Assembly (NCBI GenBank): GCA_013695835.1
Contig: JACCZU010000103.1
Span: 1 to 43,308 of the forward strand
Direction of reading: 5' to 3'
DNA length: 43,308 nucleotides
Source of the DNA: Candidatus Aridivita willemsiae
GTDB lineage: Bacteria; Actinomycetota; CADDZG01; WHSQ01
Position 1 is the stretch's first letter, and each line of letters begins with the position of its first letter. The notes under the pieces were generated by a model, which searched no databases, was not told the origin of the DNA, and saw nothing but the letters and a program-made list of their open reading frames with translations. Below, piece after piece: positions 2,163 to 43,308 of the stretch. A program made the position numbers and the translations under genes.

Positions 2163-3598
2163 GGCCGGGTCCGCACCCCGCCTGAGGCCACGGCTCGCGC
2201 GCCCGGCCCCCGAGCCGAGCCGGGCAAAGCCGGCGCTTCGGCCCGGCCGATGAGATCGGCGCCGTCGTTGTCTGTGATCGTGACGTCGACGTAGTCTCCG
2301 ACGCTCACTTCATGTGCGGCCTCGAAACGGACCTCACCGTCGATCTCGGGTGCTTCCCGTGGCGAGCGCCCCGACCACGTGCCCGCGCGGATATCGAAGA
2401 CCTCGGCGAGGACCTCGAGGCGCTCGCCGACCAGGGACCGCGCCCTGCGCTCCATAGCGATCTCTGCGGCCCCAGCCACGCCGGCTGCCCGCGCTCGGGC
2501 GGTGGCGTCGTCGACCTGACCCGCCATGTCGTGTGATCTCGTTCCCGACTCGCGCGAATAGGTGAAGGTCCCGACCCAGTCGAGGTCAGAGGTGGCGACG
2601 AACGACTCGACCTCGGCCGCGTCCTCGTCGGACTCGCCGGGAAAGCCCATGATGAAAGTCGAGCGCACGCCGGCGAGCGGATCCCCAGCCCTGATGCGGT
2701 CGATCAGACGGTGGAAGCGGTCTCTTGACCCCCACCTGCCCATACGCTTCAGGACCTGCGGGGCGACGTGCTGAAGCGAGAGGTCGAAGTAGGAAACGAC
2801 AATCTCGCTTCCGAGCATCGCGTCGATGAGCTCGTCGGTGACGCCGTGCGGATGGAGGTACATGAGGCGCAGCCGGTGCAGGCCCTCGACGCCTTCGAGC
2901 GCTTTGATCAAGGTCACGAGATCGCTCGGGCCCCCACCGCCGGCCTCGAGATCCCGGCCGTACATGACCGAGTCCTGGCTCACGAGCGAGAGCTCGGAGA
3001 CCCCCTGGGCAACGAGACGGCGCGCCTCGTCCTGCACCGTGGCCGGGGACCGGGACCGGAACTTGCCCCTCATGAGCGGTATGGAGCAAAACGTGCACGC
3101 CCGGTTGCAGCCTTCGGCGATCTTGAGGTAGGCCCACGGAGCGCGCCCAAAGCGAAGCCTCGGGCCTGCCGCGATGGTGGCGTCCCACCAGGCAGGATCG
3201 AAGCGGGTCCCCGGCCGGCCGAAGATCCGTGACCCGAGCGTCCCGGCGGCAGCGCCCGAGACGATCTCGGCGACCCTCGAGTAGGCAGCAAAGTCCACGA
3301 GCGCATCGACCTCGGGCAACGCCTCGGCAAGATCACCGGCGGAGCGCGCCACGAGGCACCCGGCAAGGACGAGGGCCTTGACTCCGCCCTCCCCCTTGAG
3401 CTCGGCGAGGTCGAGGACTTCCTCGACCGTCTCGCGGCGCGCCGGCTCTATGAACCCACAGGTGTTGACGAGCACGACCTCGGCGTCTTGGGGGCCCTCT
3501 ATGACCTCATGTCCGGCAGCGGCGAGCATGCCCCCGAGCCCTTCGGAGTCGATGCTGTTCTTGGGGCACCCCAGAGTCACGATAGCGACGCGCGCCAT
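2159..3598 (-). CDS. rimO: Ribosomal protein uS12 (Asp) methylthiotransferase RimO
   Basis: A 479-residue radical-SAM enzyme that adds a methylthio group to the conserved aspartate of ribosomal protein S12. The N-terminal domain has the three cysteines for the auxiliary cluster (Cys11 in LGCPKN, Cys47 in NTCGF, Cys81 in AGC). The radical-SAM cluster motif is EGCNRACTFCS (Cys164, 168, 171). LGCPKNSIDSE and the KFRSRSP segment favour RimO over MiaB. A TRAM-like domain ends near residue 450, followed by a Gly/Ala/Arg-rich tail of roughly 30 residues not typical of the family. The tail overlaps the start of cinA. A weak site GGAAGG lies upstream of the ATG. Confidence 0.93.
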   Translation of the reverse strand: MARVAIVTLGCPKNSIDSEGLGGMLAAAGHEVIEGPQDAEVVLVNTCGFIEPARRETVEEVLDLAELKGEGGVKALVLAGCLVARSAGDLAEALPEVDALVDFAAYSRVAEIVSGAAAGTLGSRIFGRPGTRFDPAWWDATIAAGPRLRFGRAPWAYLKIAEGCNRACTFCSIPLMRGKFRSRSPATVQDEARRLVAQGVSELSLVSQDSVMYGRDLEAGGGGPSDLVTLIKALEGVEGLHRLRLMYLHPHGVTDELIDAMLGSEIVVSYFDLSLQHVAPQVLKRMGRWGSRDRFHRLIDRIRAGDPLAGVRSTFIMGFPGESDEDAAEVESFVATSDLDWVGTFTYSRESGTRSHDMAGQVDDATARARAAGVAGAAEIAMERRARSLVGERLEVLAEVFDIRAGTWSGRSPREAPEIDGEVRFEAAHEVSVGDYVDVTITDNDGADLIGRAEAPALPGSARGPGARAVASGGVRTRP

Positions 3599-42482: not shown

Positions 42483-42510
42483 GGGCGGGCCCGCCCGTAC
42501 ACTGAGCTCA
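42483..42510. promoter_or_regulatory. Two palindromes just upstream of the MNT-HEPN gene
   Basis: GGGCGGGCCCGCCC (42483-42496) is a perfect 14-base palindrome and TGAGCTCA (42503-42510) a perfect 8-base one, ending two bases before the GTG start. Toxin-antitoxin genes often repress themselves through such sites, but this is inference; they could equally be a terminator of the nitroreductase side. Confidence 0.35.
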
Positions 42511-42512
42511 CT

Positions 42513-43308
42513 GTGAGACACGATGATGTGGTGGCCCCTCTGCGCGAATGTCTGGCCCCCGAAGACGACGTGGTGTTGGCCTACGTCTTTGGTTCCGTTG
42601 CCCGAGGGCGCGCAGGTCCGCTGTCGGACCTCGACGTCGCCGTCCTGCTGGCCGACGACGCCGACATCGGGCGCCGGCATCTCGAGCTGATCGCCGCGCT
42701 CACTTCCTCAATCAAAAGCTCAGAGGTCGACGTGGTGATACTCAACGATGCCCCGGTCGCGTTGGCCTACCGGGTTCTGAGGGACGGTCGTCCAATCGTG
42801 AACCGCAACGAGCGGGTACGTGTCGGCCACTGGGTCGCAACCGTCGACCGTTACTTAGATATGGAGCCGATGCGCCGAACGCTCGCCGCAGGCTTGCAGC
42901 ACAGGCTCGAGGAGGGCCGGTTGGTCGACCCTGATGCCGTTCGGCGCCGGCTTCGCGAGATCGACCGGCGGGTCGCAAGACTTGGACGAATTCAAGCGAC
43001 GGGTCGAGGCGCCTTCGTCGCCGATCCCGGCCTGCAAACACAAGCCGAGCGGCACCTTCAGCTTGCGATACAAAGCGCGATCGATATTGCCCTTCACATC
43101 GTGGCCGAGGATTCTGCGGCCACCCCAGAAGATTACGGCTCGTCGTTTTCGGCGCTGGCGGGCCTGGATGTGATCGGTCGGCCCCTGGCCCAGCGCCTGC
43201 GAGTTGCGGTGGGCCTCCGTAATGTCCTGGTGCACGCCTACCTCGATGTGGATCCTGAGCGAATATGGGATCAGCTCTCGGGCCTTACAGACCTGGAGGA
43301 GTTCAGCG
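42513..43308 (+). CDS. MNT nucleotidyltransferase-HEPN fusion (MntA-HepT-like), open at window edge
   Basis: One open frame of 265 codons with no stop to the window end. Residues 1-115 are a minimal nucleotidyltransferase: FGSVARGRAGPLSDLDVAVL contains GSx10DxD exactly (Gly27-Ser28, Asp39, Asp41), and VDVVIL supplies the third acidic residue. Residues about 137-265 are a HEPN (DUF86/HepT) domain: DPDAVRRRLREIDRRVARL at its start, and RNVLVHAY, the Rx4HxY RNase signature with Arg236, His241 and Tyr243. In two-gene systems MntA blocks HepT by adding AMP to that tyrosine. Here both are one chain. I checked the codons through the junction and saw no frameshift. Start GTG is my best guess; no strong ribosome-binding site precedes it. 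Confidence 0.85.
   Translation, partial: MRHDDVVAPLRECLAPEDDVVLAYVFGSVARGRAGPLSDLDVAVLLADDADIGRRHLELIAALTSSIKSSEVDVVILNDAPVALAYRVLRDGRPIVNRNERVRVGHWVATVDRYLDMEPMRRTLAAGLQHRLEEGRLVDPDAVRRRLREIDRRVARLGRIQATGRGAFVADPGLQTQAERHLQLAIQSAIDIALHIVAEDSAATPEDYGSSFSALAGLDVIGRPLAQRLRVAVGLRNVLVHAYLDVDPERIWDQLSGLTDLEEFS
42910..42923 (+). promoter_or_regulatory. Possible internal ribosome-binding site and TTG at the MNT/HEPN junction
   Basis: AGGAGG (42910-42915), five bases, then TTG (42921-42923), in frame at codon 137, exactly where free HepT proteins start (LVDPDAVRRRL). It could start a separate HEPN product. The same bases code EEGR, so it may be chance or a relic of separate genes. Confidence 0.4.

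Follow-up and report, generated by a model that had tools for sequence, protein, structure and literature searches.

The window analysed here (43,308 nucleotides, the entire contig C106 of a 302-contig draft genome of Candidatus Aridivita willemsiae) ends in a gene that joins the antitoxin MntA, a minimal nucleotidyltransferase (MNT), to the HEPN toxin HepT in a single reading frame. This raises the question of whether such a gene encodes a toxin that can only be made together with its antidote, as an earlier note had proposed, or a conventional toxin-antitoxin pair whose two frames have merged. We consider the second answer to be the better one and give a probability of roughly 60% to the whole reading, namely a type VII module with frames merged by a real and recent loss of one base, from which both a fused chain and free HepT would be made.

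Two domains in one frame

The open frame on the plus strand (42513-43308) starts with GTG at 42513 and runs through 265 amino acids with zero stops up to the last base of the window. Contig C34 of the same genome opens with the final 127 bases of the window, an exact match that occurs nowhere else in the genome, and extends the fused frame by AAIEAYLSR to a stop, giving a complete protein of 274 amino acids, the end of which depends on this contig overlap. The frame could thus be followed to its stop beyond the window, and the earlier observation of an MNT and a HEPN domain in one uninterrupted frame, both motifs being complete, was borne out. The parts of the gene are as follows.

42513..42920, plus strand: MntA part (minimal nucleotidyltransferase, adenylyltransferase antitoxin), residues 1-136, from NF047752, Polbeta and Foldseek
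42591..42635, plus strand: GSx10DxD catalytic motif GSVARGRAGPLSDLD, residues 27-41 (Asp39, Asp41), from motif reading and alignment
42729-42731, plus strand: third acid of the MntA part, Asp73, from a nine-row alignment
42921..43308, plus strand: HepT part (HEPN RNase toxin), residues 137-265, running on into C34, from NF047751, PF01934 and Foldseek
43218..43241, plus strand: RX4HXY motif RNVLVHAY, residues 236-243 (Arg236, His241, Tyr243), from motif reading
43182..43308, plus strand: exact 127-base overlap with the start of C34 (assembly join), from comparison with the contigs of the genome

Profile searches gave 83.1 bits for the MntA half (NCBIfam NF047752) and 97.8 bits for the HepT half (NF047751), each with a cut-off of 60, and the Pfam matches to HepT-like PF01934 (2e-22), Polbeta (1.6e-17) and PF01909 (3.6e-12) were likewise over cut-off. 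As both halves score well over curated cut-offs, chance similarity is excluded. In Foldseek, the MntA half matched the solved MntA chains 7bxo_A and 6m6u_A, and the HepT half matched HepT 5yep_C at 30% identity with a TM-score (template modelling score) of 0.87. Residues G27, S28, D39, D41 and D73 were unchanged across the nine-row alignment, and with the motifs at 27-41 and 236-243 the numbering of Asp39, His241 and Tyr243 given previously is correct.

The HEPN part belongs to PF01934 and carries RX4HXY, and the MNT part belongs to PF01909 and carries GSx10DxD, which is the composition of class I HEPN/MNT modules (where PF08780 may stand in for PF01934). Two neighbouring genes for two proteins were not found, as the consensus holds one frame and a separate MntA is uncoded; therefore, the locus was filed as a fused form of the MntA-HepT family and not as its canonical two-gene form. 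Motifs and profile scores support a type VII pair with both active sites complete, and judged by its sequence the locus is a class I (type VII) MntA-HepT toxin-antitoxin module with merged frames. Foldseek also placed ANT and KNTase enzymes among the distant structural neighbours, as might be expected if the protein were a domesticated, non-toxic nucleotidyltransferase that uses its HEPN part merely for substrate binding or dimerisation. However, in domesticated KNTase/ANT-like MNT-HEPN proteins the HEPN part is without its RNase residues, whereas Arg236 and His241 are present here, RX4HXY is complete, and identity between the HEPN part and the split HepTs of its own clade, those with complete motifs, is 51-65%, which makes domestication the most improbable of the explanations considered.

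With the Shewanella oneidensis system SO_3165/SO_3166 (MntA-HepT, HEPN/MNT, type VII; PMC7641770; PDB 5yep, 6m6u, 7bxo), the gene shares both domains, GSx10DxD with the third Asp, RX4HXY with the AMP-accepting Tyr (AMP, adenosine monophosphate) and the folds, while the Shewanella system consists of two separate proteins with about 25-31% identity in the structural matches. The HEPN-MNT system of Legionella pneumophila (PMC11586414) resembles it in having an RX4HXY toxin, which is AMPylated there by the MNT partner, but differs in its separate proteins, their transient contact and an MNT without helix alpha4.

The junction and its relatives

All close relatives holding both domains are two-gene pairs. 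In each of the ten nearest (L064, L065, L066, L068-L072, L075 and L076), hepT is in the +1 frame and overlaps mntA by exactly 14 nucleotides, counted from its own start to the last base of the mntA stop codon; the start is TTG (8/10) or ATG (2/10) at the position found in the window, and the mntA tail is of the type EG-R-F-G-R-P-stop. Set against these relatives, the junction contains the following features.

42910..42915, plus strand: Shine-Dalgarno sequence AGGAGG of hepT, 5 nucleotides before TTG and within the coding end of mntA, from the duplex energy with the 16S tail
42920..42921, plus strand: site of the missing base, from the junctions of the ten relatives versus the window
42921..42923, plus strand: hepT start codon TTG, read as Leu (residue 137) in the fused frame, from the start position in relatives
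42921..42934, plus strand: kept ancestral 14-nucleotide gene overlap TTGGTCGACCCTGA, with the same 14 nucleotides in L045/L068 and L046
42932-42934, plus strand: former mntA stop TGA in the +1 frame, from comparison with two-gene relatives

The two-gene relatives have one additional base between an Arg, Ser or Thr codon and the TTG or ATG of hepT. The junction of the Euzebyales pair L045/L068 reads GGAGGAGGGCCGTTTTGGTCGACCCTGAGG and that of the window CGAGGAGGGCCGG-TTGGTCGACCCTGATG, so that the window is shorter by one base while the 14 overlap bases are identical. Other two-gene Actinomycetota pairs (L065 of Actinomycetota 0707_bin13, L064 and L066 of Pseudonocardiales), like the Euzebyales one (MGR_bin271), share the place of the overlap, the Shine-Dalgarno sequence and TTG with the window, their HepTs being up to 65% and their MntAs about 50-60% identical to it, but have the extra base before TTG, an mntA that stops at TGA and hepT in the +1 frame. 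In a wider set of 67 scorable two-gene loci, 59 have overlapping genes, and in 58 of these the frame of hepT is +1; therefore, the loss of one base at this place merges the frames. A programmed +1 frameshift at CCC-TGA in the relatives was considered and rejected, as the codon before the stop varies (CCC, CGC, CCG, TCG, CTC).

Among the 69 sequences of an MntA+HepT tree, that of the window falls within a clade holding nine split pairs (support 100/98), and this nesting among split pairs marks the fusion as derived. Across this tree the fused state has to change six times, and well supported branches force three or more of these changes. Two uncommon codons are kept at the junction, namely CCT, the Pro codon that preserves the old TGA (12.9% of Pro codons in the genes of the window), and TTG (8.2% of Leu codons). 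Their retention suggests a recent event, an internal start that is still in use, or a base missing only in the assembly. Read from the sequence, the fusion is thus a derived state in which a single base was lost immediately ahead of the 14-nucleotide overlap, either recently or through an assembly slip.

Predicted free toxin, proposed tethered chain and the missing base

The AGGAGG within the end of mntA pairs with the 16S rRNA tail at -12.1 kcal/mol, a value not reached at any of the 353 start-like codons inside sixteen conserved window genes, and only one of those sixteen genes has a stronger Shine-Dalgarno sequence at its own start. Since the hepT start codon and this strong Shine-Dalgarno sequence survive, free HepT can probably be made from TTG 42921 beside the fusion, and what the merging is predicted to remove is free MntA, not free HepT. 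At the fused gene's own start, GTG 42513 (region 42498-42513), TACACT lies about 10 nucleotides upstream and no Shine-Dalgarno sequence is present (-1.9 kcal/mol), so that the mntA mRNA may be leaderless; a consensus promoter scan upstream of the fused gene gave no match.

The idea of a toxin always born with its antidote is therefore not supported, as a separate HepT is expected. The same evidence bears on the proposal in the earlier note that the unit may be a self-controlled RNase rather than an addiction module, taken here as an established single chain that acts as a sensor. A single frame in which both active sites are intact would suit such a role, and further fusions with both sites intact exist (e.g. 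Hakubella L067/L050, G211:C210 and G093:C5). However, the closest relatives are all split into two overlapping genes, the junction is their overlap minus one base, the hepT start and Shine-Dalgarno sequence are retained, the uncommon codons that preserve the former stop and start suggest that the fusion is not of long standing, and there is no added linker or sensor domain, so that we regard this role as very improbable.

In the mechanism that we propose instead, with the deletion taken as real and recent, loss of one base before the 14-nucleotide overlap would have put two normally overlapping genes in one frame, and the gene would yield a 274-residue MntA-HepT chain together with free HepT from TTG 42921. 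The MNT part would then add AMP to Tyr243 of HEPN parts, be it its own, that of a partner chain or that of free HepT, and thereby block the mRNA-cutting toxin; the tethered MntA would retain its catalytic role and the locus may still act as an ordinary toxin-antitoxin module. In Shewanella, MntA transfers three AMPs to Tyr104 of HepT, with catalysis more important than binding, and the two proteins form a complex in which six HepT are combined with two MntA (PMC7641770); in Legionella the MNT-HEPN contact is transient (PMC11586414). By analogy, the AMP-transfer chemistry of these systems does not appear to forbid a tethered MntA.

Several points weigh against this account. The missing base rests on one consensus sequence, and the contig stops at an assembly break 387 bases further on. 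In the Shewanella complex the bound nucleotide sits away from the tyrosine (PMC7641770). Moreover, the AlphaFold model shows two well folded domains (predicted local distance difference test score, pLDDT, 91), but their relative placing is unsure (predicted template modelling score, pTM, 0.58), so that a reach of the nucleotidyltransferase site to Tyr243 in cis would be conjectural. An assembly or sequencing slip, by which an ordinary overlapping mntA-hepT pair would appear one base short in the consensus, would explain why the complete old overlap, stop, start and Shine-Dalgarno sequence remain as if only one base were lost and why the contig break falls inside the same gene, and another fused case (L077) likewise resembles a frame merge by an insertion or deletion (indel). 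On the other hand, twenty conserved window genes, compared with their families over about 25 kb, showed no frame break, which would cap indel errors at roughly one per 8 kb (95% bound). At the site itself only two Ts stand in a row, and the exact match of 127 bases between the contigs points to short-read data, where indels are rare. A slip is thus a possibility to be taken seriously, albeit the less likely one, and we retain a real and recent one-base loss as the more probable.

Other fusions, origin and meaning

Single-frame MntA-HepT fusions were found in at least six genomes besides that of the window. Among named genomes, about 72 loci have both domains and four of them (L067, L073, L077 and L079) are such fusions; the phylum sample added G211:C210 and G093:C5, its third case, G275:C5, being the Hakubella locus L067; these fusions could themselves include assembly slips. 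Both motifs are complete in all of them except L079, which is cut at its start. L067 (Candidatus Hakubella thermalkaliphila), L073 (Bacteroidetes QS_8_64_10), G211:C210 and G093:C5 have the MNT-HEPN order of the window, but the other fusions fall elsewhere in the tree with several origins, and the preserved out-of-frame 14-nucleotide overlap was seen only in the window. Sequence comparison thus indicates that single-frame fusions arose repeatedly. In L077 (Candidatus Roseilinea sp. SKYG71, about 2860-2900), the HepT N-terminus MVKPEVIR lies in the neighbouring frame, as after an indel. In L067, which has a longer linker (about 2880-2900), the ATG at the start of HepT is preceded by an internal AAGGAG, so that this gene may also make free HepT.

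A 'HEPN-MNT fusion' was reported on pAgK84 by Makarova in 2009 (PMC2701414), and Anantharaman in 2013 noted occasional fusion to MNT for the HEPN-M family, with MNT-fused HEPNs typically without RNase residues (PMC3710099). The earlier caution that other fusions exist and novelty must be checked was therefore well placed. The findings named earlier as refuting the proposal did emerge in part: in the consensus a one-base event lies at the junction, and fusions of this kind had been described as occasional. The one-frame arrangement is uncommon, recurrent and previously described; what is new is its one-base origin and the retained toxin start.

Only one of 23 other genomes of the same class gave a match at 1e-15 or better (31% identity), and in other classes of the phylum the domains are up to 65% identical. 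Given this near-absence in its own class and the closer domains elsewhere, horizontal acquisition by the actinobacterium is the simple reading and a probable one. Matches among plasmid relatives were two-gene or HepT-only, with no others, and phage records and viral contigs gave no match; in the contig search, a single-protein query gave no match but an alignment query did.

On C34 (249-957), a small gene in the vapB position, without a Pfam hit, and a VapC-like gene with a PIN domain come directly after the fused gene, so that, as read from these genes, two toxin-antitoxin units form a small cluster here; the next gene, on the opposite strand, is that of a class IV aminotransferase. Among the relatives, L049 (G152:C16, about 960-1023) has hepT scraps joined across an internal deletion right after mntA, apparently an antitoxin without toxin. 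The HepT of L058 (G032:C61, 1456-1890) has its full motif and an identity of 63-65% with that of the window; with no MntA matched in front, it is apparently an orphan toxin in a genome with several further MntA/HepT units. In L076 (Chloroflexota KatS3mg065, 2907-3326), a stop lies near the first third of HepT, mntA and the 14-nucleotide overlap being intact.

We tentatively suggest, at somewhat less than even odds, that two products occur in vivo, namely free HepT and a tethered chain in which both sites work, the antitoxin being present only in the toxin chain, and that merges at +1 overlaps are recurrent and tolerated in type VII modules. If so, such loci would be natural tests of AMP transfer within a chain versus between chains. 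Fusions with complete active sites also qualify the 2013 remark that MNT-fused HEPNs are typically inactive. For work on draft genomes, the locus cautions that a fusion can be a one-base event and that a fused frame does not imply a toxin made solely with its antidote. For MntA-HepT, a very common toxin-antitoxin system, it shows a route to single-chain versions, in which one base lost at a +1 overlap would leave both enzymes and the toxin start intact.
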